DNA of 64,000 bases. Origin: an uncultured Spirochaetales bacterium. GTDB taxonomy: Bacteria > Spirochaetota > Spirochaetia > Sphaerochaetales > Sphaerochaetaceae. Shown piece after piece: positions 12,766 to 26,986 of the stretch (position 1 is its first letter; every line of letters starts with the position of its first letter). The DNA lies in assembly GCA_902781545.1 (NCBI GenBank), contig CACZJR010000004.1, positions 1-64,000 on the forward strand. The letters run 5' to 3'. The notes below the pieces were generated by a model. The model was not told where the DNA came from, did not search any database, and was given only the letters and a program-made list of their open reading frames with translations. The position numbers and the translations under genes were made by a program.

Positions 12766-14640
12766 TTATCTTCTATGATATCTGTTATCAAACCTCGGCT
12801 TCAAGGTCTTTGAGTACTCGATTATCTGGTCCACGGTGATCTTGTCCACATCCGCGACCTCACCGCTCTGGGCCACAAGGTCCGCGACCACATCATAGCA
12901 GTGGATGAAGTACTCGATGGACTGGATGATGGTGTTCATCCTCTCACCCACATCAGAGTCCTGCATGATGGAGCTGAAGCCGTCGAACTCCTCTGCGGCA
13001 TGGTTGGTGTTGTTCCGCACCACACCTACATAGTAGTAGGCGAACAGGAGATTCCTCAGGGCATCCTTGTCCGGGCAGATGGAATGCGCGACAATGCCGT
13101 CAATCTCCTTGTTGTCGACCTCCATCACTCTTCCCTTCGCGACCTCCATCTGGCTTGAGCGGGGATCGCCCTTACGTGCCATGTGTATGGCGCTGTAGTT
13201 CTTGATGTAATAGTGCTCGACGCTGCTCGTGATCTTCCATTTCTCATAAGGCTTCAGGTCATAGTATGCCTGACCCAGGACCCTCAGGACAGACTCGGAG
13301 TTCGACGGGGAGTTGCTGTAGTAGTAGAATCCCTTGTCCACGATGTCATCCGGGGCCTTGGACTCGATGATGGTCAGTGTCTGCTGCCAGAAGCCCTTGC
13401 GGTATGCCCACCTGACAAGGTCGATGAACTCTATGTCATCGTTCTTGAGAAGCGGACCGTAGTCCTGGCGGATGCTCTCGGCTATCATTCCGAAGAACTT
13501 CTCCGCGAACGAAGAGCCGCCAAGGTCCTTCTTCTCCTTGAAGAGCTCGCGCAGGCTGTCTATTCCGCGCTCGATATCAGAGATGTCACAGAGTGAGATT
13601 CCCGTGTCGATGTTGCGCATGGCGTAGAGCAGGCGCTGGATGTCGGAGTTATGAAGGCCGGTTGAGTTCCAGTAGTCAAGGAGCATGTCTGTCTTGCCGT
13701 ACTTGAGGAATGCCCTGATTCCCGCAAGCAGGTCGGTAACCGCGAACTTCTCGGTGTCATCTGAGATCTCGCTGACAATTCCGTCGGGATTCCTGGTGGT
13801 GGTGATGATCTTGGCTATGCTGATGTTGGACTCAGGCACGGCCTTGATGAGGTTCATGATGTTCATCATGACGAATGTGTCTGACGCATCCTCACTCTGG
13901 ATACACATGTAGATCTCGACATCGGCCGGATTATCAGGATCACCGAAGTCCTTCATGATCCTCGTGAAGTTCTCCACGAACGCGCCGATCGCATCCGAGC
14001 CCACCGGGACAAAGCGGATCTTGACGTTTGAGTTGCTCTCAAGGATCTCCATCTTGGATGAGTCCTTCATCTGGTTGTACAGGTACTGGAACATCCAGGT
14101 CATGTAGTTCATCGCATGAGAGTCAAAGTCCTCTATCTCCTCATTCATCGAGGCCATCAGCCTGTTCCTGAGCTCGGAGTCCTGCATTAGATGGTCGAAG
14201 AACCTGTTGAAGCGGTTGTCGCCTGATGCGTTGAACTTCTTGAAGAATCCCTCGATGAATGAAGTGGCGGCCTTCTGCTGCTCCTCTGTCAGAAGCTCAC
14301 GGATGTCCTGCTCCTCGACGTTAATGTCATCAAGGTATTCCGCGAGACGGTAGCGGAACAGGCTGTATGTTGACATGTCCTTTATGTCAGTGGCGTAGAA
14401 TGTGCTTCCTTCCTTGAGCACCACAGACTTGAGACCGTCCTCAGGGTCATATGTCGACTTTGAGCCGAATGTGATTATCTCATCAATGGTGTCGTTGGCA
14501 AGCACGTACTTGCAGCTTGCCTCTGCACTGAGCAGAGCATCGCAGTAGCATGTCTTGTCGCCTTTCTCGTTGAAATAATAATGAAGCTTTCCGCCTGCGC
14601 TGACTCCGTATAGCGGAGTAATCAGAATCCTGTATTTCAT
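12766..14640 (-). CDS. CARF-HEPN protein of the TM1812/Csx1/Csm6-like group
   Basis: A 624-residue protein. The N-terminus (ILITPLYG, later DEIITFGSKSTYD) fits the Rossmann-type CARF sensor domain of TM1812-like CRISPR ancillary proteins, which bind cyclic oligoadenylate. The C-terminal half (LVRWAYRKGFWQQTLTIIE) fits the HEPN domain, with a candidate RNase motif R-x4-H: Arg542 and His547 in VRNNTNHA. Known relatives are RNases activated by type III CRISPR signalling. No cas gene and no CRISPR array occurs in this window. Its start overlaps the MATE stop by four bases, so the two are translationally coupled. Confidence 0.8.
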   Translation of the reverse strand: MKYRILITPLYGVSAGGKLHYYFNEKGDKTCYCDALLSAEASCKYVLANDTIDEIITFGSKSTYDPEDGLKSVVLKEGSTFYATDIKDMSTYSLFRYRLAEYLDDINVEEQDIRELLTEEQQKAATSFIEGFFKKFNASGDNRFNRFFDHLMQDSELRNRLMASMNEEIEDFDSHAMNYMTWMFQYLYNQMKDSSKMEILESNSNVKIRFVPVGSDAIGAFVENFTRIMKDFGDPDNPADVEIYMCIQSEDASDTFVMMNIMNLIKAVPESNISIAKIITTTRNPDGIVSEISDDTEKFAVTDLLAGIRAFLKYGKTDMLLDYWNSTGLHNSDIQRLLYAMRNIDTGISLCDISDIERGIDSLRELFKEKKDLGGSSFAEKFFGMIAESIRQDYGPLLKNDDIEFIDLVRWAYRKGFWQQTLTIIESKAPDDIVDKGFYYYSNSPSNSESVLRVLGQAYYDLKPYEKWKITSSVEHYYIKNYSAIHMARKGDPRSSQMEVAKGRVMEVDNKEIDGIVAHSICPDKDALRNLLFAYYYVGVVRNNTNHAAEEFDGFSSIMQDSDVGERMNTIIQSIEYFIHCYDVVADLVAQSGEVADVDKITVDQIIEYSKTLKPRFDNRYHRR

Positions 14641-16043
14641 TTGTCGCTCTCCTCTGTAGCAGTAGTCTCTTTGCTTATATTATCATTCTCCACAACCGCG
14701 GGCCATGTGTCCAGCACTTTCTTCCTGAACCAGATGCTCATCGCGGTGACAATCCCGAATCCCAGGTAATCAGTTATGACATATGAGAGCCAGACCCCTG
14801 TCATGCCCATGGTTCTTGAGAGCAGCAGCATTATCGGAAGCAGCAGCCCTATCTGCCTGCAAAGCGAGTAGATCATTGTCAGGTATGACCTCTTTGCCGG
14901 AGGGAAGCACTGCGAGCAGACAATCGAGATCCCGCTTATGAAAAGCGATGTCCCGAGTATCCTGTAGGCTGTCATGCCGATTTGGCGCATCTCATCCGTG
15001 GCGCTGATCATGTTGAGGACCACACCGGGCAGGAGCACGAAGAAAAGCCCTGCAAGAGATGAGATGCAGAATGCGGTGAAGATCGCGATCCTCCTGGTCT
15101 GAAGGAAGCGGTCGCGGTTCTTGGCGCCGTAGCTGTAGCCTAGGATCGGGGTCATTCCCCTTGTCACACCGAACACAGGAAGCACACCGAACGTACTTAT
15201 CTTGGAGTATCCGCCGTACACGGATATTGCCACTGAGCCGTAGCGTGAGATGACCTTGTTGATTATGCCGCCCACTATTGATGTTGTGGCCTGTGTCAGC
15301 GCAGATGGGACTCCGACAGCCAGGATGTCCTTTATGACCTTCCATTCCGGCCTGAATGACCTGAATGACACAGGCAGGTTCCTGCGGTTCTTCACGAACA
15401 CCCCGAAAAGTCCGACTGCCATGGATATTATCTGTGCGCAGCCCGATGCCAGCGCAGCACCCCTTATCCCAAGATGGAACACCAGTATGAGAAGCGGATC
15501 AAGTATCAGCACGCTGGCGGCTCCCGCAATCTGGGAGAACAGCGGTATGATCATGTTCCCCGACCCCTGAAGTATGGAGAACGATATCTGCGTGAATATC
15601 TGTCCGAATGACAGCATGCACAGGGTCCTGATGTAGATGATCCCGTCAGCTATCACCTGCTCCTCCGTGGAGTACATCCTGACGAACCATCCGGATCCGA
15701 AGATCCCGAAGAGAAGCATGACGGCAAATGAGATCAGTCCCAGCGCAAGTCCGTTCGCTGCCGACTTGGAAGGTCGCTCCGGATCCCCTTCTCCCAGCCC
15801 CCTGGCGATGCTTGAGTTTATGCCCACCCCAATGCCTGTTGAGATTGCGCCTGTGAACATTGTCACAGGAAACGCAAGTGTGACAGCCGCAAGACTGGCG
15901 GCGCTGATCTTGCCCACGAAGACAGAGTCAATCGTGTTGTACAATGACTGCATTATCATTGCCACAACCGACGGGGCAGCCATCCTGAACATGAGTCTCT
16001 TAACCGGCTCGGTACCGAGCCGCTCCCTAGCTAATGTGCCCAT
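14637..16043 (-). CDS. MATE family efflux transporter
   Basis: A 468-residue membrane protein with about 12 hydrophobic segments. The N-terminal LGTEPVKRLMFRMAAPSV and the repeat pattern of two six-helix bundles fit NorM/MepA-like MATE pumps that expel cationic drugs in exchange for Na+ or H+. The ATG at 16043 has no clear ribosome binding site. A perfect 18-bp palindrome covers 16005-16022, within the first 13 codons. It is the first gene of a unit that continues into the CARF-HEPN gene. Confidence 0.92.
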   Translation of the reverse strand: MGTLARERLGTEPVKRLMFRMAAPSVVAMIMQSLYNTIDSVFVGKISAASLAAVTLAFPVTMFTGAISTGIGVGINSSIARGLGEGDPERPSKSAANGLALGLISFAVMLLFGIFGSGWFVRMYSTEEQVIADGIIYIRTLCMLSFGQIFTQISFSILQGSGNMIIPLFSQIAGAASVLILDPLLILVFHLGIRGAALASGCAQIISMAVGLFGVFVKNRRNLPVSFRSFRPEWKVIKDILAVGVPSALTQATTSIVGGIINKVISRYGSVAISVYGGYSKISTFGVLPVFGVTRGMTPILGYSYGAKNRDRFLQTRRIAIFTAFCISSLAGLFFVLLPGVVLNMISATDEMRQIGMTAYRILGTSLFISGISIVCSQCFPPAKRSYLTMIYSLCRQIGLLLPIMLLLSRTMGMTGVWLSYVITDYLGFGIVTAMSIWFRKKVLDTWPAVVENDNISKETTATEESDK

Positions 16044-16054
16044 GTGACAAAGAA

Positions 16055-16127
16055 TATAATAATTCTTGTATTACTGAAAGGGATAACGGAGAATATAAGG
16101 TAGGGAAAACCCCGAAAGGAGAAAAAA
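16055..16127 (+). promoter_or_regulatory. Divergent promoter region before the membrane hydrolase
   Basis: A TATAAT box lies at 16055-16060 on the plus strand with only a weak -35. The plus-strand gene has an AAAGGAG ribosome binding site before 16128. The same AT-rich tract must also hold the promoter of the divergent MATE gene. Confidence 0.45.
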
Positions 16128-18077
16128 ATGGGAGAGAAAGTGAAGAGAAACCTTATTCTGCTCTGCATCGGATTGTGCGTGATCCTCTGCAGCAGCTTCT
16201 TCGCAAGCATGATCCAGAGCGCCGGATTCACGGTCAAGGTCTATGACCTGCGCAATCAGACGAACTCGGGATCAATCGAGATTGACGGAAAGAAGGCCAC
16301 CGTCTCCGGAAAAGTCGTCAGCGGCATACTCTTTGTGCCCAAAGCAGCCAGTGAGACCAACAAGAGGCCGGCGGTCGTGCTCACACACGGCTATCTGAAC
16401 AACAGGGAGCTCCAGCTGCAGAACGCGATCGAGCTCGCACGCCGCGGATTTGTCGTGCTGACCATTGACCGCGAGGGTCACGGCAACTATCCAAACTCAG
16501 GAAGCCAGAACGCAATGATGGCCACCGCAGGTCTCTACGACAGCGCGAAGTATGTCTACAACCTGCCTTACGTGGACCAGACGAAGATCGGTATCTCCGG
16601 CCATTCCATGGGCGGAATGACAACCGCATCAGTGCTGTCCTCGGACAACGGAGCGACATTTGACGCAAACGGCAAGGCAACCGGAAACGGCCTTCATATC
16701 ATCAAGGCCGGCCTGATGCAGGGATGGAGCTCATTCATGGGCGCAGGCGCCGATGTCTCAGTCGGAAACCTCAAGGCAAATGACGATGAGTTCTTCTACG
16801 GCAGCCAGGACTACCAGAACAACAGGACAATCGCAAGACAGTACCTGATCTCGAAGGCAGCAGCAAGCTTTGTCGGAGCCCAGTTCGACGGACCGATCAA
16901 TGTCGTGAATGACGGGATCTACATCAACGGAGTCCTGACAGAGGTCAAGGAGGGAACAGCAGCCCCTGCTCCGTTCAGGGTCGTCTATGAGAACAACGAG
17001 ATCCATCCGCTGAACCATTTCTCGAGAAAGAGCGCAAAGGATGTCGTGAACTTCTTCTACACAGCATTCGGAACACCGAGCGGCGCCAAGTACATCAAGA
17101 GCTCCAGCCAGACATGGTGGATCAAGGAGGCATTCTCCTTCATCGGCCTGATCGCGATCTTCTTCTGCATCTTCCCGGCTGCAGGACTCCTGCTCGAGCT
17201 GCCTCTGTTCAAGAGCCTCCAGCGCGATGAGAGCCTGCCTCTGGCAAAGAGAGAGGTCAAGGGAATCTACGGCTGGATCATGTACCTTTGTCCCGCGATA
17301 ATCTGCACCCTCTTCTCCGGCTTCAGCATCCAGAAGATGAACAGCATCGGCGGAACATGGTTCCCCAAGACGAATCTCTATCCCCAGGACACCACAGGCT
17401 GGGTCAGCATGTGGGCGGTTGTCTGCGGACTGTTCGCCCTGGGTGTGATCCTTGTGTTCTGGCTGATCGACTACATCGTCAAGAAGGCAAGGAAGAAGGA
17501 CGAGTATGTTGTCAATCCGTTCGAGGTCGGCTACATGAAGGGCGGTCTGCTCGGATTCATCAAGACCGCGTTCCTCGGCACCATCATCGTCGCTGGAATG
17601 TACCTTGTCCTCTTCATCACATGGGGAATCTTCAAGGTCGACTTCAGGATCTGGACACTGGACATGAAGGTGTTCAACATCCCGGCAATGCTTCCGACAA
17701 TGCTCCGCTACACGCAGATCTTCGCCATCTTCTATCTGATCAACGGCTTCACAAACCAGAGCTACAGCGCGAAGAACCTGCCTGAGTGGCTGACAATAGC
17801 GATCAACGCGTTCTTCAACGTGGCCGGTATCTTCCTCGTGATGATGATCCAGTACGGCACATTCAAGTCAACAGGAGTCCTCTGGCAGGGCGGCATGGCA
17901 CTCGGCTACATAGTGCTGTTCCCGATTGTCCCGATCCTCATCGTCGCAGCAATCATCTCCAGGAACCTGTACAAGAAGACCGGAACAGTCTGGCTCGGCG
18001 CATTCATCAACGCCCTGCTGTTCACCATCATGACGGTCGCCAACACAGCCTCATCACTGTCATACGTGCTCGGCTGA
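16128..18077 (+). CDS. Alpha/beta hydrolase fused to a polytopic membrane domain
   Basis: A 649-residue protein. After an N-terminal signal-anchor helix (about 9-30) comes an extracytoplasmic alpha/beta hydrolase domain: oxyanion region LTHGYLNN near 86-92, nucleophile Ser160 in GHSMGG, and a candidate His in NEIHPLNHF. From about residue 325 on there are eight predicted membrane helices. The hydrolase is therefore tethered to the outer face of the inner membrane. Substrate cannot be named; lipid or peptidoglycan-linked esters are possible. It is monocistronic, with its own ribosome binding site and terminator. Confidence 0.8.
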   Translation: MGEKVKRNLILLCIGLCVILCSSFFASMIQSAGFTVKVYDLRNQTNSGSIEIDGKKATVSGKVVSGILFVPKAASETNKRPAVVLTHGYLNNRELQLQNAIELARRGFVVLTIDREGHGNYPNSGSQNAMMATAGLYDSAKYVYNLPYVDQTKIGISGHSMGGMTTASVLSSDNGATFDANGKATGNGLHIIKAGLMQGWSSFMGAGADVSVGNLKANDDEFFYGSQDYQNNRTIARQYLISKAAASFVGAQFDGPINVVNDGIYINGVLTEVKEGTAAPAPFRVVYENNEIHPLNHFSRKSAKDVVNFFYTAFGTPSGAKYIKSSSQTWWIKEAFSFIGLIAIFFCIFPAAGLLLELPLFKSLQRDESLPLAKREVKGIYGWIMYLCPAIICTLFSGFSIQKMNSIGGTWFPKTNLYPQDTTGWVSMWAVVCGLFALGVILVFWLIDYIVKKARKKDEYVVNPFEVGYMKGGLLGFIKTAFLGTIIVAGMYLVLFITWGIFKVDFRIWTLDMKVFNIPAMLPTMLRYTQIFAIFYLINGFTNQSYSAKNLPEWLTIAINAFFNVAGIFLVMMIQYGTFKSTGVLWQGGMALGYIVLFPIVPILIVAAIISRNLYKKTGTVWLGAFINALLFTIMTVANTASSLSYVLG

Positions 18078-18096
18078 TCGGTTAAGAAACCTTTTC

Positions 18097-18130
18097 AAGG
18101 CTGCTGCCTCACCGCGGCAGCCTTTGTTTT
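18097..18130 (+). terminator. Terminator after the membrane hydrolase
   Basis: An 11-bp stem (18097-18107 with 18114-18124, one G-U pair) around CTCACC is followed by TGTTTTG. Confidence 0.82.
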
Positions 18131-18162
18131 GCCCTTCTGACGGTCTGTCCTGAAAATTTATC

Positions 18163-18187
18163 TTGACAGTTTTGTGATTTTTGTCAA
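18163..18187 (+). promoter_or_regulatory. Candidate promoter element with inverted repeat before the YwaF-like gene
   Basis: TTGACA at 18163-18168 is a consensus -35, and TGTCAA at 18182-18187 is its inverted repeat. No good -10 is found at the expected spacing, so this could be an operator rather than a plain promoter. Confidence 0.35.
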
Positions 18188-18219
18188 AACATTAGTTAGA
18201 AAAAGATAAGGAGCACACC

Positions 18220-18984
18220 ATGTGGAAAACACATCAGGCCTACTACGGCCCCTTACATTTCGCTGCCATCGGAACAATGCTTGCATTCCTTGCATTGGGA
18301 ATCGTACTTGGAATCAAGGCCAAGGGAAGCGGCAGAAGCAGGGACAAGGCCATGACAATCCTTGGCTTTGTGTTCATCGCCCTTGAGGCATTCAAGATCA
18401 TCTTCAGGCTCATTGTGAATGAGGGTGCGGACCTGACACTTATCTCATTCCAGATATGCTCCATCCCGATGTACCTCCTGCCGTGCATCTACTTCATGAA
18501 GGACGGGAAGCTCAAGCAGGCATTCATAGGCTACGTTTCATTCCAGAGCTTCACATCCGCATTCTTCTACTTCGTGAAGCCCGCTGCGGTAATCGGAACC
18601 TCTTATATTGCCATCTCACTGCACTCAATCCTCTGGCATGCACTGATGGTCTGCAGCGGAGTCTACGCGATGATTTCCTACGGGCTTCTCACAAAAGAGG
18701 GCTTCAGGACATTCATTTACAGTTACATCCTCTGGGTTGTGACAGTGGCAATCGCCATCATCCTGGACATCATCCTGATCAACGCCAATCCGGACACAGC
18801 ATTGAATCTCTTCTACATTGCTCCGAACAGCACTTTCAAGTATCCGCTTCTGGGCATCCTCTTCAAGCAGCCGAAGCCCTACCCGCTCTTCATCCTCTGC
18901 TTCCTGATCTACTATTTCATCGGAGGCTTCGCGATTTACGGGATCGGATACGGCATAACCCGTCTCTGCACCAGGAAGAAGTAA
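18220..18984 (+). CDS. YwaF-like (TMEM164-like) integral membrane protein
   Basis: A 254-residue protein with about seven hydrophobic helices. The segment FQICSIPMYLLPCIYF and the later LHSILWHALMVCSGVY match the pattern of YwaF-family proteins, which carry a Cys in the first motif and a His in the second. The function of bacterial members is not established. A GGAG ribosome binding site precedes the ATG. It is convergent with the Xre pair, whose end is one base away. Confidence 0.7.
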   Translation: MWKTHQAYYGPLHFAAIGTMLAFLALGIVLGIKAKGSGRSRDKAMTILGFVFIALEAFKIIFRLIVNEGADLTLISFQICSIPMYLLPCIYFMKDGKLKQAFIGYVSFQSFTSAFFYFVKPAAVIGTSYIAISLHSILWHALMVCSGVYAMISYGLLTKEGFRTFIYSYILWVVTVAIAIILDIILINANPDTALNLFYIAPNSTFKYPLLGILFKQPKPYPLFILCFLIYYFIGGFAIYGIGYGITRLCTRKK

Positions 18985-18985
18985 G

Positions 18986-19231
18986 TCAGACCCTGATACT
19001 GATCCGGGTCCCGTCCGTGGTGTTCACCTCCACAAGGTTCCAGGACCCGTTCTCACGCTTATACTGCCTGAGGGCCCTGACAAGCTCTTTCGCAATGGGC
19101 GCGTACATCCTGCTCTGCTCCGGAAGGAAACGCCAGATGAAACTCCATCCGGCTATTCCGAGCGGTACAGGGAGAAACAGCCTGAAGCACTTGTCCGAGT
19201 CCTCACGTGGTGCAACGACACTGATTCTCAT
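18986..19231 (-). CDS. Small partner of the Xre regulator
   Basis: An 81-residue protein whose middle (FRLFLPVPLGIAGWSFIWRFLP) resembles the domain at the C-terminal end of the upstream regulator (RVNLPLKIVKIALDAG). I do not know the domain's role; pairs of this kind occur in spirochaetes and clostridia as regulator plus membrane-stress protein. It overlaps the stop of the Xre gene by four bases, so the two proteins are made together. Confidence 0.6.
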   Translation of the reverse strand: MRISVVAPREDSDKCFRLFLPVPLGIAGWSFIWRFLPEQSRMYAPIAKELVRALRQYKRENGSWNLVEVNTTDGTRISIRV

Positions 19232-19737
19232 TCAACGACAATCCTCACATGGTCTCCGTCTGCTGAGTCAACAGTGACAATCTCACCCAAAAGGCCCTGC
19301 TCCACCAGAGAGTAGACCTGCTTCCAGTCAATTGAGGACATGGCGTCCGCGACCTTGCCCTGCCCGCTGACACTCATTGCAGGGGAGACTCCTGCGTCAA
19401 GTGCTATCTTCACTATCTTAAGAGGAAGATTCACGCGGATCTTATCTCCCTCCTTTGAGTCCACAATGACCCTGAGCATCAGCTTTGAGAAGTCCTTCTG
19501 CACTGTCTCAGGCTCATACTTTGCGGGAACCGGATTCTCCTTGCCCAGAAGCTCGTCCGTGCTGACACCCAGAAGATCGCCCAGATTGAGCAGGATCCCG
19601 ACATCCGGCATGTTGATGTCATTCTCCCACTTAGATACTGCCTGTGAGCTGACATTCACCTTGTTGGCTATATCATCCTGCGTGTAACCCTTGTTTTTCC
19701 TTAACCTTGAAAATCTCTGTCCGAAAGTCTCTGTCAT
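19228..19737 (-). CDS. Xre-family helix-turn-helix regulator
   Basis: A 169-residue protein. Residues about 8-62 form an Xre DNA-binding domain (LRKNKGYTQDDIANKVNVS and AVSKWENDINMPD). The C-terminal part has a beta-rich unit with RVNLPLKIVKIAL that recurs in the small protein downstream. An AGGAGG site lies seven bases before the ATG. It is divergent from the bacteriocin-type exporter operon and is a candidate for its regulator; paired sites lie between them. Confidence 0.85.
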   Translation of the reverse strand: MTETFGQRFSRLRKNKGYTQDDIANKVNVSSQAVSKWENDINMPDVGILLNLGDLLGVSTDELLGKENPVPAKYEPETVQKDFSKLMLRVIVDSKEGDKIRVNLPLKIVKIALDAGVSPAMSVSGQGKVADAMSSIDWKQVYSLVEQGLLGEIVTVDSADGDHVRIVVE

Positions 19738-19789
19738 TTCCGAACCTCCTGACTAAAAGCTAGCCTTAATCATGCCGATAGTGAACGGA

Positions 19790-19844
19790 CCGTTGGTTGT
19801 CTTTATCATACCATTGGTTGTATATCCGCTCAACCTCAGGTTGA
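19790..19844. promoter_or_regulatory. Direct and inverted repeats between the Xre gene and the exporter operon
   Basis: CCGTTGGTTGT at 19790-19800 recurs as CCATTGGTTGT at 19811-19821, 21 bases apart, which is two helical turns. Nearby 19830-19844 is a perfect inverted repeat with seven-base arms (TCAACCT/AGGTTGA) around one base. They may be sites for the adjacent regulator. Confidence 0.45.
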
Positions 19845-19885
19845 TTCGGCCTCTCTTATGTCCTGAATGTATATCCAATATCATC

Positions 19886-19915
19886 TTGAGAACCATAACA
19901 AAAAAATAATATATT
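19886..19915 (+). promoter_or_regulatory. Promoter of the bacteriocin-type exporter operon
   Basis: TTGAGA at 19886-19891 and TATATT at 19910-19915 are 18 bases apart, giving a leader of about 54 bases to the first ATG. Confidence 0.55.
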
Positions 19916-19975
19916 ATCAGAAGAGCATAGGGAGACGCCTGAAAAAATCCACAAGTCCCCTTATCCGGAAGCAAG

Positions 19976-20464
19976 ATGAACGAGAAAACAAACATAAGAG
20001 AGAAAAAGCAGAACCTCCAGCCCGGAGACCTGAACCAGTACATCCGCCTCACGACAGTCAGCATCTGGCTGGTGCTTGTAGCCTTCATTGTATTTGTCAT
20101 AGGCATGGTGGTCTGGGGATTCACCGGAAACCTCTCCGTCAGCGTAAAGGCCGTGGCCGTGGGACATGAGGGCAAAGTCAGCCTGTACATCCCCGAGGAC
20201 CAGGTCTCGAGGATCAAGGACGACAATGAGCTTGTCATCAATGACAAGTCAGTTGCCATAGGCAATGTGCATGAGAACGGCATCTCACAGCGTGCCGGCG
20301 ATGTCCTTGACGAGTATCAGCTCTCTCTCGCAGGTCTCTCCGAGAGCCAGAAGGTCATTGTGGTTGACCGCGATCTTGCAGGATATGACGGGTCATACGG
20401 GGCGGCCATTATCATTGAGCGCATCAAGCCGTTCGATTTCCTGTTCGGAGGGAACAAGAGATAA
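19976..20464 (+). CDS. Short HlyD-like membrane fusion protein of an NHLP-type exporter
   Basis: A 162-residue protein. A cytoplasmic start is followed by one membrane helix (about 27-50, VSIWLVLVAFIVFVIGMVVWGF) and a periplasmic beta-rich segment with VGHEGKVSLYIPEDQVSRI and a terminal HlyD-like strand region. It resembles the two ends of NHLP/NHLM secretion proteins joined without their long coiled-coil hairpin, so it is far shorter than the usual 400 or so residues. It overlaps the peptidase-ABC gene by one base (TAATG), which fixes its context as an exporter subunit. Confidence 0.7.
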   Translation: MNEKTNIREKKQNLQPGDLNQYIRLTTVSIWLVLVAFIVFVIGMVVWGFTGNLSVSVKAVAVGHEGKVSLYIPEDQVSRIKDDNELVINDKSVAIGNVHENGISQRAGDVLDEYQLSLAGLSESQKVIVVDRDLAGYDGSYGAAIIIERIKPFDFLFGGNKR

Positions 20465-22662
20465 TGAGCAAGAAGCAGAGAATCCCGCAGCCAATTGATC
20501 ACGGCGTGGCAGATGTGCCGGTGATCACACAGTATGAGAACCAGGAATGCGGCGCAGTCTCACTTTCCATGGTCCTCGGCTATTACGGCAAATGGCTTCC
20601 GGCCGGTGAGGTCAAGGAAGACGTAGGTCCCTGCAGGGACGGAGCCAACGCATACCACATAGCAAAGGCCGCAGAGAGCTACGGCCTCAAGTCAGAGGTG
20701 GCACGCTACAAGGCCCCGGAGTTCTTCGAGAAAGCCACCTTCCCCTGCGTGGTCCACTGGCAATACGTGCACTTCCTTGTCGTCAAGGGCGTGAAGAATG
20801 ACAACGTATACATAAACGACCCCAAGAAAGGCGATTACATCATGTCGAAGAAATCCTTCGAGGAGAGGTACACGGGTTTCTGCGTGTTCTTCAGGCCTTC
20901 AGAGGATTTCAAGCCCGAGGGACACAGGAAGACCCTCCTGGAGTTCATCCGTGAGCGGCTGAGACATATGGAGGTTGCCCTTTTCTTTGTGCTGGTCACC
21001 ACATTCCTGATCAGCATGCTTACGATATTCCGCCAGGGAATGACCAGATTGTTCCTGGACAGGCTGCTGACCAAGCAATACGGGAGCTGGGAGAAGCCGT
21101 TCCTGTACCTTCTGAGTGCGGTGACGGTCATAGAGATAATCGTCATGGCCATACAGGCCTTCTACATGAACCGGATCCAGGGAAAGATCTCTGTGGTGAG
21201 CAGCACCTCATACATGTGGCACATTCTGAAGATGCCCCTGAACTTCTTCGCTAACAGGCTCCCCGGAGACATCAATTTCCGCAAGCGACTCAATGTGGAG
21301 GTGGCAAAGAACCTTGTCACAATCCTAGGCCCTGTCGTGCTTCAGGTTGTCATGATGGTCCTTTATCTGGCGATAATGGTCAGCTACAGTCCCCTCCTGG
21401 CGATCATTGGAGTGTCATCGGTCCTTGTGAATGCGCTCATAGGAAAGGTGATCGCAACAAAGATCACGCGCATAACCCGTGAGCAGCTGACGAACAACGG
21501 CATGATGGGAGGAACACTCTCAGCTGGAATCCAGATGATTGAGACAATCAAGGCAAGCGGAGCCGAGAACGGTTACTTTGAGCTCTGGTCAGGCTATCAG
21601 GCCAATGTGACTGCACAGCAGAACAATGCCAACAGGGTCAACCAGTATCTCGGGATGGTTCCGCTCATTGTCTCTGCGGTCTCAGGAAACCTTGTCCTTA
21701 TCATCGGAGCCTTCCTGATAATGAACGGCAGCTTCACCCCCGGTGCCCTCATGGCGTTCCAGGGGATCCTGACCCTTTTCACAACTCCTGCACAAGCACT
21801 GCTCAGGGCAAGGAAGGACCTCCAGGAGATGCACGCGAACATGGAGCGCATCGATGATGTCATGGAGACCGAGGAGGACATTGCATGGAGAAAGCGCGAC
21901 GGGAGCGAGAATGAGGGCACAAAGGAAGACACCTACAGCAAGCTCTCCGGCCAGCTGACAATGAAGGACGTCAGCTTCGGGTACTCCCGCCTTGACGATC
22001 CACTAATAGAGAACTTCAACCTTGACCTCAAGCCGGGAAAGAGCGTGGCGTTCGTAGGACCCTCCGGGTGCGGCAAGTCCACATTGGCAAAGCTCATCTC
22101 CGGGCTTTACCAGCCATGGAGCGGAAGCATCACATTCGACGGCAAGCCGCTTCTGGATGTTGACAACAGCGTCCTCAGAGGTTCACTTGCAGTCGTTGAC
22201 CAGGACATCATCCTCTTTGAGGACACGATTGAGAACAACATCAAGATGTGGGACAACACAATCGAGAACTTCGAGATGATACTGGCCGCCAGGGATGCCC
22301 AGATTCATTACGACATCATGAAGCGTGAGGACGGCTACAGGCACAGGCTCGCACCGGAGGGAAAGGATTTCTCCGGCGGTGAGCGCCAGAGACTGGAGAT
22401 AGCCAGGGTCCTCGCGCAGGAGCCCACGATCATCATCCTTGATGAGGCCACCAGCGCACTTGACGCAAAGACCGAGTTCGATGTTGTCAAGGGAATCAAG
22501 GACCGCGGAATCACATGCATTGTCATTGCCCACAGGCTCTCGACCATCCGCAGCTGTGACGAGATCATCGTGCTTGAGCACGGCCACGTCAAGGAGCGCG
22601 GTACACACAATGAGCTTCTGAAGAAAGACGGGCTTTATGCCGAGCTGGTCAAGAGCGAGTAA
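20464..22662 (+). CDS. C39 peptidase/ABC exporter of NHLM type
   Basis: A 732-residue bacteriocin-type processing exporter. The N-terminal C39 peptidase has the oxyanion Gln23, Cys29 (QYENQECG), His103 and Asp119 in NDP, so it should be active and cut after a double-glycine leader. A six-helix membrane region follows, then an ATPase with GPSGCGKST, signature FSGGERQRLEIAR and Walker B IIILDEATSALD. Together with the next ABC protein it fits the NHLM export system (TIGR03796-like). It should cleave and export a leader-bearing peptide, which I cannot find in the window. Confidence 0.9.
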   Translation: MSKKQRIPQPIDHGVADVPVITQYENQECGAVSLSMVLGYYGKWLPAGEVKEDVGPCRDGANAYHIAKAAESYGLKSEVARYKAPEFFEKATFPCVVHWQYVHFLVVKGVKNDNVYINDPKKGDYIMSKKSFEERYTGFCVFFRPSEDFKPEGHRKTLLEFIRERLRHMEVALFFVLVTTFLISMLTIFRQGMTRLFLDRLLTKQYGSWEKPFLYLLSAVTVIEIIVMAIQAFYMNRIQGKISVVSSTSYMWHILKMPLNFFANRLPGDINFRKRLNVEVAKNLVTILGPVVLQVVMMVLYLAIMVSYSPLLAIIGVSSVLVNALIGKVIATKITRITREQLTNNGMMGGTLSAGIQMIETIKASGAENGYFELWSGYQANVTAQQNNANRVNQYLGMVPLIVSAVSGNLVLIIGAFLIMNGSFTPGALMAFQGILTLFTTPAQALLRARKDLQEMHANMERIDDVMETEEDIAWRKRDGSENEGTKEDTYSKLSGQLTMKDVSFGYSRLDDPLIENFNLDLKPGKSVAFVGPSGCGKSTLAKLISGLYQPWSGSITFDGKPLLDVDNSVLRGSLAVVDQDIILFEDTIENNIKMWDNTIENFEMILAARDAQIHYDIMKREDGYRHRLAPEGKDFSGGERQRLEIARVLAQEPTIIILDEATSALDAKTEFDVVKGIKDRGITCIVIAHRLSTIRSCDEIIVLEHGHVKERGTHNELLKKDGLYAELVKSE

Positions 22663-22672
22663 GGAGAGACAG

Positions 22673-24862
22673 ATGAGTTGGTTTGACGAACAGATAAAGC
22701 AGAGAAAAGAAGCGGACGACACTGTATTCTCCGAGGCCAACCGCCGGCTTGGCGATGTTGTCTCAGGCCGGAGGACATCGGATTTCCAGGGTATGGGATC
22801 CGCAGAGGACGACATAGGACGCATCCTGGGCTACTTCCACATAAAGCCCAAGGAGCTGCCGCAGGGCATGAATGACCTCAAGGACCAGATGGAATTCCTC
22901 CTGCGCCCGTCCGGGATCATGACACGTGAGATCTATCTTGAGAAAGGCTGGCACAAGGATGCATCCGGCCCCATGCTCGGTTTCCTGAAGGAGAGCCGTC
23001 AGCCGTGTGCCATCATCCCCGCAAGACGCGGAGGCTATGAGTTCTTTGATGAGAGCACCGGCAAGAAGGTCCATGTCACAGCCTCCAATGAGAAGCTGTT
23101 CGACGAGGATGCCATTGTCTTCTACAAGCCGCTTCCTCTCAGAAGCCTTGACTTCAAGGATGTGCTGCGCTTCCACTGGGAGGCCCACACGACAGGTGAC
23201 AGGGTCATGTTCATGGTCTTCCTCGGCCTTGCCACGCTGATACAGCTGTTCATACCAAGGGTCACAAAGATCATCTTCTCAACATTGATCTACTCTGACA
23301 GCATGCGGCTGTTCTTCGGAATCACGGTGTTCCTGCTCTCAATGAGCATCTCATCGGTCATGTTCACATCACTCAAGAACCTGGTGGTGTCAAGGATAAA
23401 CAACCGCTGCTCCACTGCGTTCGAGGCCTCCCTTGTCATGCGCCTCCTGCAACTTCCGGTCCACTTCTTCAGGGAGAACAGCGCCGGAATCCTGAGCAGC
23501 CGCATGTACAGCTGCAGGCAGTTCTCCACATTCCTCGGAAACCTGGTCTACTCATCAGTGCTGACATCTGTGTTCTCCCTGATCTACATAGGGCAGATCA
23601 TAATCTATGCTCCGACACTGGCGCCTATTGCCGTGACCATCATCATCCTCCAGATTGCGCTCTACATCATTCTCGGTGTGGTCTCGTCAAAGGTCAGGGG
23701 AAGACAGCTCTCACTGGAGAACAAGGAGAGCTCACTCTCCTACTCCACCATATTCGGAATCCAGAAGATCAAGCTTGTAGGCGCGGAGAAGCGCATCTAC
23801 GGACAGTGGGCAAACGCATTTGAGAATTCCGCGAAGGCCCTCTTCAGGCTGCCTGCCTTCATGCTCTTCTGCCCTGTGCTGATATCAGCCGTAGGTCTGA
23901 TCGGCCAGATCTTCCTCTACTCTACGGCACTGAGCTCCTCGATTTCGCTCTCCGACTACTATGCCTTCAACGCGGCATACGGCCTTGTGAACGGAGCCAT
24001 CATGGCACTTGCCTCCGTAGTTGAGTCACTTACAAGGATCGGACCCCTGTACGCCCAGATCAAACCTGTCCTTGAGGCCGTCCCTGAGGTTGACGCCGCA
24101 AAGAAGACAGTCTCCGAGCTGAAGGGAAAGATCAAGCTGGAGGATGTCTGCTTCCGCTATGATCCCACGACACCGAACATCGTGGACCATCTGAACCTCA
24201 CAATCGACAGCGGTGAGTATCTTGCGATTGTCGGACGCACCGGATGCGGCAAATCAACCGTCATGCGCCTTCTGCTTGGATTCGAGAAACCCGATTCAGG
24301 CCTCATCACCTACGACGGGGCAGACCTGCAGACTCTGGACCTCAGATCGCTCAGGCAGAAGATCGGTGTCGTGCTCCAGGACGGAAAGCTCTTCAACGGT
24401 GACATCTACTCCAACATTGTCATATCAGCCCCGTGGCTTACCGAGGAGGAGGCCTGGGAGGCCGCCAAGATGGCCGGTCTTGAGGAGGACATCAAGAAAA
24501 TGCCCATGGGCATGCACACCATGATCAACAGCAACTCCGGCGGCGTCTCAGGCGGACAGCGCCAGAGAATCATGATCGCAAGGGCAATTGCCTCCAAGCC
24601 GCGGATCCTCCTGTTCGACGAGGCCACAAGCGCCTTGGACAACGTGACACAGAAGATTGTCTCCGATTCACTGTCTCAGCTCAAATGCACCAGAATCGTC
24701 ATTGCGCACAGGCTCTCCACCATCAGGCAATGTGACCGCATCATCATGCTTGACGGAGGCCACATTGTCGAGGACGGCACATATGACCAGCTCATGGAGC
24801 TCAACGGTGTGTTCGCCGACATGGTTGCCCGCCAGCAGGTCTGCTACGACCCCATGGAATAA
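22673..24862 (+). CDS. Second ABC exporter of the NHLP/NHLM system
   Basis: About 729 residues from the ATG at 22673, which has AAGGAGAG upstream; the open frame extends 12 codons further up into the previous gene. The N-terminal 165 residues are a cytoplasmic domain without peptidase residues (including PCAIIPARRGGYEFFDE), typical of the TIGR03797-like partner. Six membrane helices and an ATPase domain follow, with GRTGCGKST, signature VSGGQRQRIMIAR and ILLFDEATSALD. It probably forms a heterodimer or tandem with the C39 protein. It is the last gene of the operon. Confidence 0.9.
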   Translation: MSWFDEQIKQRKEADDTVFSEANRRLGDVVSGRRTSDFQGMGSAEDDIGRILGYFHIKPKELPQGMNDLKDQMEFLLRPSGIMTREIYLEKGWHKDASGPMLGFLKESRQPCAIIPARRGGYEFFDESTGKKVHVTASNEKLFDEDAIVFYKPLPLRSLDFKDVLRFHWEAHTTGDRVMFMVFLGLATLIQLFIPRVTKIIFSTLIYSDSMRLFFGITVFLLSMSISSVMFTSLKNLVVSRINNRCSTAFEASLVMRLLQLPVHFFRENSAGILSSRMYSCRQFSTFLGNLVYSSVLTSVFSLIYIGQIIIYAPTLAPIAVTIIILQIALYIILGVVSSKVRGRQLSLENKESSLSYSTIFGIQKIKLVGAEKRIYGQWANAFENSAKALFRLPAFMLFCPVLISAVGLIGQIFLYSTALSSSISLSDYYAFNAAYGLVNGAIMALASVVESLTRIGPLYAQIKPVLEAVPEVDAAKKTVSELKGKIKLEDVCFRYDPTTPNIVDHLNLTIDSGEYLAIVGRTGCGKSTVMRLLLGFEKPDSGLITYDGADLQTLDLRSLRQKIGVVLQDGKLFNGDIYSNIVISAPWLTEEEAWEAAKMAGLEEDIKKMPMGMHTMINSNSGGVSGGQRQRIMIARAIASKPRILLFDEATSALDNVTQKIVSDSLSQLKCTRIVIAHRLSTIRQCDRIIMLDGGHIVEDGTYDQLMELNGVFADMVARQQVCYDPME

Positions 24863-25846: not shown

Positions 25847-26986
25847 ATGAATCGAGCAGGAACATACATCACAAATCTCACAGGCGATGCAGCTTACAAG
25901 TCATTCAGACCTGCACTGCTTCCACCACAGCCTGAGCTTCAGCTTGATGAGGAGACCATGAGGCTGCTGGTTGAATCAAACCGCCAGCTTTCACGTCTGG
26001 ACTCTGTCTCATCCTCAATCCCGAGCGCTGAGCTCTTTGTTTCCATGTATGTACGCAAGGAAGCCCTGATCTCATCTCAGATTGAGGGAACCCAGTGCAC
26101 CCTTGATGATGTCCTGAATCCCGATCTTGATTCGAACACAAACCTTGATGTAGCTGATGTGATCAACTATGTCAGGGCAGTCCAGTATGCGCTGGAAAGG
26201 TTAATAACCCTTCCCCTGTGCAACCGCCTGCTCTGTGAGATCCATGAGGTGCTGATGGAAGGCGTACGGGGACAGGAGAAGAATCCCGGAGAATTTCGCA
26301 GGTCCCAGAACTGGATCGGAGCCGCAAACTGCGCCCTGAAGGATGCCAGATTTGTCCCGCCAAATGTCGATGACATGACAGAGGCAATCTCTGCTTTAGA
26401 GAAATATATCAATGAGAATGACAAATATGATCCGCTGGTCCGTGCAGCGCTGATTCATTACCAGTTCGAGACAATCCATCCGTTCCTTGACGGCAACGGC
26501 AGAATCGGCCGCCTGCTGATTCTCCTTTACCTCATGGATAAGAAGCTTCTTTCCAAGCCAGTACTCTATGTCTCTTTCTTCCTGAAGAAGAATCAGGTTG
26601 AGTATTATGACCGCATCAGCGAAGTCAGAAGAAGCGGAAACTACGAGCAATGGGTACGCTTCTTCCTCGAGGCAGTCAGCAAAGCCGCAGAGGATGCGAC
26701 CTCATCAATTGAGAAGCTTACAGAACTGCACGAGAGAAACCTGGGCATACTTCCACATTCCTCAAGAAGCCGTAACATCACTAGGGAATTATTCGATTAT
26801 CTGGAGAAGCATCCGATAATCAATGTCAAGAAAACCGCACAAGATCTCGGTGTCAGCTTCAATACAGCCACCAACGCCATCAGGAAGCTGATTGATACCG
26901 GAATACTGAAAGAGAATACCAACGTCTCCCGCAACAGGATTTTCATCTATGACGAGTACCTGAGCATACTCAGGGAAGGAACATGA
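25847..26986 (+). CDS. Fic family protein (class II, with C-terminal winged helix)
   Basis: A 379-residue protein. The Fic core HPFLDGNGRIGR is at 211-222 with the catalytic His211, so it should transfer AMP or another nucleotide to a target hydroxyl. The inhibitory motif S-x3-E-G is upstream at Ser76-Gly81 (SSQIEG), which makes it a class II, self-inhibited Fic. The last 80 residues (VKKTAQDLGVSFNTATNAIRKL) are a winged helix-turn-helix. The upstream repeats suggest the protein binds its own promoter. The target is unknown. It lies beside vestiges of a type I restriction locus, a common setting for such genes. Confidence 0.93.
   Translation: MNRAGTYITNLTGDAAYKSFRPALLPPQPELQLDEETMRLLVESNRQLSRLDSVSSSIPSAELFVSMYVRKEALISSQIEGTQCTLDDVLNPDLDSNTNLDVADVINYVRAVQYALERLITLPLCNRLLCEIHEVLMEGVRGQEKNPGEFRRSQNWIGAANCALKDARFVPPNVDDMTEAISALEKYINENDKYDPLVRAALIHYQFETIHPFLDGNGRIGRLLILLYLMDKKLLSKPVLYVSFFLKKNQVEYYDRISEVRRSGNYEQWVRFFLEAVSKAAEDATSSIEKLTELHERNLGILPHSSRSRNITRELFDYLEKHPIINVKKTAQDLGVSFNTATNAIRKLIDTGILKENTNVSRNRIFIYDEYLSILREGT

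Follow-up and report, generated by a model that had tools for sequence, protein, structure and literature searches.

The DNA analyzed here (the window; 64,000 nucleotides) corresponds to bases 1 to 64000 of a contig that is 64,380 bases long. The draft genome to which it belongs (G000) totals 2.2 Mb in 128 contigs and is 93% complete, and its nearest named relatives are Spirochaetales MAGs from rumen and abomasum. It contains a pair of genes, a MATE family transporter gene followed by a CARF-HEPN gene, in which the stop codon of the first overlaps the start codon of the second (Table 1). Judging from this overlap, the two proteins would be made from the same message by coupled translation, the MATE just ahead of the RNase. 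An earlier note on this DNA, made from the sequence alone, had described the same arrangement, and the coordinates, strand, ATGA overlap, and R542-x4-H547 motif given there all proved exact. The transporter scores 183.7 bits against TIGR00797 (curated cutoff, 147.4) and also matches PF01554 (E = 1.6e-45).

Table 1. Features of the MATE and CARF-HEPN gene pair, in window coordinates
Feature	Position	Strand	Evidence or comparison
MATE family transporter, 468 aa, first of gene pair	14637..16043	-	TIGR00797, PF01554
MATE codons 441-459	14667..14723	-	Counterpart is the stub upstream of the G130 CARF-HEPN gene (L001:1362-1418)
ATGA, overlap of MATE stop and CARF-HEPN start codons	14637..14640	-	Sequence
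CARF-HEPN gene, 624 aa, second of gene pair	12766..14640	-	PADLOC, fold search, dN/dS
Layout of 624-aa protein: sensor ~1-300, helical linker, C-terminal HEPN ~490-592	12766..14640	-	
SAEASCK (residues 38-44), aligned with TNES..[RK] of type III-linked relatives	14509..14529	-	
CARF strand-4 pocket segment CIQSEDASD (residues 246-254)	13879..13905	-	D-x-[TA]-G-G-x-R site in type III-linked relatives
HEPN catalytic motif R542-N-N-T-N-H547	13000..13017	-	Invariance in orphans, alignment to type III-linked relatives

The genes around the pair are mostly metabolic, and no defense island was seen in the 64-kb window. A scan of the window found no CRISPR-like repeat array, its only Rfam match was a tRNA, and the ten neighboring window proteins that were scanned gave no match to a CD-NTase or mCpol. 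The G+C content of the CARF gene, at 52.3% compared to 52.0% for the window, gives no sign of recent import, and promoter and terminator scans returned scores little over chance. The downstream SDR gene was rejected as a member of the module, since it lies 3' of the CARF-HEPN gene only in G000 and in one relative, G130; in two other relatives, G131 and G133, an ABC transporter gene holds this position. About 10 kb from the pair, the window also encodes a Fic-domain protein (25847 to 26986, forward strand; PADLOC SoFic, E = 1.7e-119).

The earlier note had called the 624-aa protein a CARF-HEPN RNase with a TM1812-like start. The HMM check bears out the domain assignment, with PADLOC matches to CARF2--CARF_HEPN (E = 1.4e-30) and Csx1/Csm6 (E = 9e-18), and the same CARF-HEPN profiles match 8/8 homologues. 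Pfam and NCBIfam gave nothing useful for this protein, nor could it be identified by searching its sequence against solved structures. Because Csx1_HEPN (PF09455) found no match in G000, we consider the HEPN domain to be a divergent branch. As for the start, the protein was grouped in a broader CARF2/Csx1 set, but its N terminus is divergent and the TM1812-like label is a loose one. We also obtained an AlphaFold model from the 8 homologues with a mean pLDDT of 77 and a pTM of 0.55 (an earlier model from 5 sequences, with a pLDDT of 57.6, was too poor), and when it was compared to the PDB with Foldseek, ranks 1 to 5 were all CARF-family proteins, at E values of 9e-4 to 0.3 and low global TM-scores (0.19 to 0.35). 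Csx1-Crn2 (E = 9e-4) and Thermus Csm6 (E = 1.4e-3) were the best of these, again at low global TM-scores. Csm6 of Thermus thermophilus (PDB 5fsh and 8jbb), although among the best structural matches, shares only ~11% identity with the window protein and answers cyclic oligoadenylate (cOA) made by Cas10.

An R-x4-H motif is by itself prone to chance occurrence. Here, R542, N543, and H547 are invariant in the 8 homologues, which are 28 to 92% identical, and R542-NNTN-H547 aligns with the RNxxNH of ten type III-linked relatives.

Within the order, 6 of 139 genomes carry the CARF-HEPN gene: G000, four members of its genus (G130, G131, G133, and G134), and G119 of the same family. A profile search of one clostridial order recovered full-length homologues in 3 of 297 genomes (G745, G778, and G704), and a second profile search, covering the phylum of these clostridial carriers, recovered type III-linked relatives (L053 to L056). 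The spirochaete class also includes, in G461, a true type III-B locus (L021) that encodes a CARF2-HEPN protein. In a maximum likelihood tree of 18 proteins, a small sample with long branches, 8 orphans and 10 type III-linked proteins are split at 100/100. The orphan clade spans Spirochaetota and Clostridia, and 8/8 members keep the HEPN motif. These orphans share with the type III-linked CARF2--CARF_HEPN/Csx1 proteins (L021, L053 to L056) the CARF-HEPN architecture, PADLOC homology, and an RNxxNH-type motif, and they differ from them in having an extra segment of >100 aa between CARF strands. No homologues were found in phage, plasmid, and viral-contig collections, so a phage-borne origin is without support here. 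Two further genomes were not counted as carriers: G542, where a phage-like region contains a weak match, and G496 (L003/L023), with only a short fragment and a stop. The fragment in L023 of this clostridial genome consists of 53 residues that match the CARF-HEPN C terminus and is possibly the remnant of a lost gene.

The earlier note had suggested a survey of MATE-CARF gene pairs in other genomes, and this survey extended the pairing to two more species of the genus (G131 and G133) and to the clostridial genome G745. The pairing is thus not confined to G000, the finding that the note had named as one that would refute it. The paired genes overlap by ATGA in G000 and G745 (L028) and by TAATG in G131 (L002) and G133 (L013). 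Among the 15 genomes examined, of which 11 belong to the genus, a MATE orthologue (58 to 66% identity) is found in the same 4 and always beside CARF-HEPN. It was not found in the eight other genomes of the genus (best other match, 36%, in G126) or in G119, G778, and G704. In the remaining 296 genomes of the clostridial order, where scoring was confined to the top few candidates of each genome, none reached E <= 1e-110. In the CARF tree, G745 is sister to the spirochaete genus set, and the pair therefore probably arose once and then moved between phyla; the deep divergence (45 to 59% identity) argues against contamination. Since this tree needs only one origin of the pair, the pairings are not independent. 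Directly upstream of the MATE gene in G745 is a gene for a HaeIII-family restriction enzyme (L028 11344 to 12429, reverse strand; PF09556, E = 5e-29) with no methyltransferase gene evident beside it, and the same locus has a type I modification-like gene, identified by inspection of translations.

An adjacent MATE gene is lacking in 5/9 carriers (G130, G134, G119, G778, and G704). One of these, G130, the nearest relative, has a CARF-HEPN protein 92% identical to that of the window, at a locus (L001) that is collinear with the window save that 14727 to 19945 are missing (break at 14726/19946). Directly upstream of its CARF-HEPN gene is a MATE stub (19 aa, 84% identical; E = 1.7e-6), which, together with the break in collinearity, shows that G130 lost the MATE gene by a recent deletion of ~5.2 kb. 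The dN/dS of the CARF-HEPN gene between G000 and G130 is 0.057; thus, the MATE is dispensable, as G130 deleted it and the CARF-HEPN gene stays under purifying selection. Collinearity between L001 and the window up to the MATE stub includes a forward-strand cluster (window 19976 to 24862) in which a small gene precedes a pair of ABC transporters. A C39 peptidase domain is present in the first transporter, and the cluster resembles one for bacteriocin (NHLM-type) export.

Such a history could mean that CARF-HEPN acts alone and that the MATE is a passenger, a multidrug pump that happens to share the operon. The five carriers with no adjacent MATE, the persistence of strong selection on CARF-HEPN after the deletion in G130, and the single origin that the pair needs in the tree speak for this explanation. 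It accounts less well for a tight-overlap pair that persists across two phyla, and an orthologous MATE without the RNase was not found in the 15 selected genomes or in the 297 of the clostridial order. We regard the passenger explanation as a possibility to be taken seriously, if tentatively.

The ligand pocket of the CARF domain also sets the orphans apart. At CARF strand 4, all ten of the type III-linked relatives recovered have D-x-[TA]-G-G-x-R (DFTGGFR and DITGGPR, for example), in contrast to none of the 8 orphans. The orphan segments at this site, such as CIQSEDASD, LNSDDAAD, and MQGMDSAD, instead follow the consensus [QN]-[SG]-x-x-x-x-D, with D254 invariant. The TNES segment is replaced in the orphans as well, with E40 and K44 invariant, so that they lack all three marks of the type III-linked proteins, namely, DxTGGxR, TNES, and a position beside type III genes. 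A basic residue (K/R) after strand 4 is a conserved feature of the CARF pocket (PMC4012209). One lost motif is no proof that cOA binding is lost; however, the strand-4 replacement is consistent across the clade, unlike random decay, and at the level of sequence it suggests a changed ligand.

Another explanation has the sensor binding a cyclic oligonucleotide that is supplied in trans by a CBASS-type CD-NTase, an mCpol, or a phage-triggered enzyme. The invariance of T8, E40, and K44 suggests that a pocket is still in use. CARF sensors are related to SAVED sensors, and defense systems have nucleotide signals in common (PMC12669027, PMC9704534). We nevertheless think this explanation unlikely, as such a synthase was not recognized in or next to the loci read and the basic pocket residue is replaced.

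We also searched for a type III partner. Cas10 palm2 (PF22335) was found in none of G000, G130, G131, G133, G134, and G119, which are drafts and in several cases incomplete, and RAMP (PF03787) was found in none of these six drafts or in the drafts G745, G778, and G704; the RAMP positive controls, the type III genome G461 and control genomes, were matched. It is unlikely that assembly gaps alone produced a joint absence of type III genes across nine genomes. These results bear on a proposal in the earlier note that the signal comes from a distant type III locus, by which the protein would be an ordinary Csx1-type effector and its cOA would come from a Cas10 elsewhere, missed by the draft or on a mobile element. 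The closest profile matches are indeed type III-linked CARF-HEPN families, and the type III-B locus of G461 places a CARF2-HEPN protein in the same class. With Cas10 palm in 0/6 genomes, RAMP in 0/9, and the DxTGGxR motif gone clade-wide, this proposal is disfavored and we consider it very unlikely to be correct. The other proposal of the earlier note, a stand-alone unit, fits better, and the best reading is that in this clade the RNase has been uncoupled from Cas10 and probably from cOA too. That the gene is functionless and decaying, left over from a type III system since lost, seems most improbable, for despite its patchy distribution, the broken gene in G133, and the short fragment left in G496, intact pairs of CARF-HEPN genes have dN/dS values of 0.06 to 0.18 (strong purifying selection), the catalytic residues are invariant at identities as low as 28%, and the gene is present in two phyla.

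Taken together, we favor, with about even confidence, reading the protein as a HEPN RNase that stands alone, is gated by a signal not made by Cas10, and is often coinherited with a dispensable pump. By analogy with its family, the putative Rossmann-type CARF sensor would restrain the RNase and free it upon binding a small ligand, and the HEPN domain, whose RNNTNH motif is intact, would then cut RNA as in Csx1/Csm6, leading to RNA decay and growth arrest. Because no Cas10 or RAMP gene was found in the genomes of the clade that were searched and the pocket motif is swapped, cOA made by Cas10 is most likely not the ligand, which might be another nucleotide-derived signal of infection or damage, such as RNA ends with a 2',3'-cyclic phosphate. 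The CARF domain of RtcR binds RNA ends of this kind (PMC7790460), and a similar idea has been proposed for the CARF proteins of CoCoNuT loci (PMC11090510). The most plausible job of the MATE would be one of tuning, by export of the ligand or of a stress compound that gives rise to the ligand. A role in defense may be envisaged for the pair, with a nucleotide-activated RNase functionally coupled to transport. A stronger version, in which the pair is a Cas10-independent two-gene stress or immunity module whose non-cOA sensor has its threshold set by MATE export of the ligand or its source compound, and which passed as a unit between Spirochaetota and Clostridia, strikes us as rather unlikely.

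CARF proteins are usually taken as receivers of Cas10-made cOA, and the orphan clade makes it testable whether CARF-HEPN proteins were reused for other signals. It also offers a compact pair of sensor-RNase and transporter in which biochemistry could find the ligand, and it would warn annotators against taking a CARF-HEPN match as a sign of a type III system. Orphan status alone is not new, since stand-alone CARF-nuclease genes independent of CRISPR were noted in 2013 by Anantharaman et al. (PMC3710099); the text of that paper does not contain the words "MATE" or "transporter," and the orphans described here differ in that their pocket motif is replaced clade-wide. RtcR and the RtcR-like CARF proteins of CoCoNuT loci, going by their descriptions (PMC7790460, PMC11090510), are likewise divergent CARF proteins outside CRISPR, but the CARF domain of RtcR is fused to a sigma54 activator and that of the orphan clade to HEPN. 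In the open-access literature searched, we found no description of a CARF-MATE pair or of a Cas10-free clade with a replaced pocket motif and a recurrent MATE.

Finally, the CARF gene differs from its surroundings in the comparison of G131 and G133. In 200-base windows, it is ~80 to 91% identical between the two genomes, while the flanks are mostly ~93 to 99% identical, and its dS is 0.52, compared to 0.13 to 0.14 for its neighbors. Allele replacement is common in conflict genes, and the sequence comparison suggests allele exchange at this gene. A 43-base deletion, recognized by comparison with L002, interrupts the G133 copy (L013 8470 to 10661) and represents either natural loss or an assembly error; other genomes have intact copies. 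We also observed that the G131 and G133 CARF-HEPN proteins have a long, low-complexity C-terminal tail rich in Asn, Gln, and Gly (L002 8602 to 8905; L013 8473 to 8850) that is missing in the window protein.
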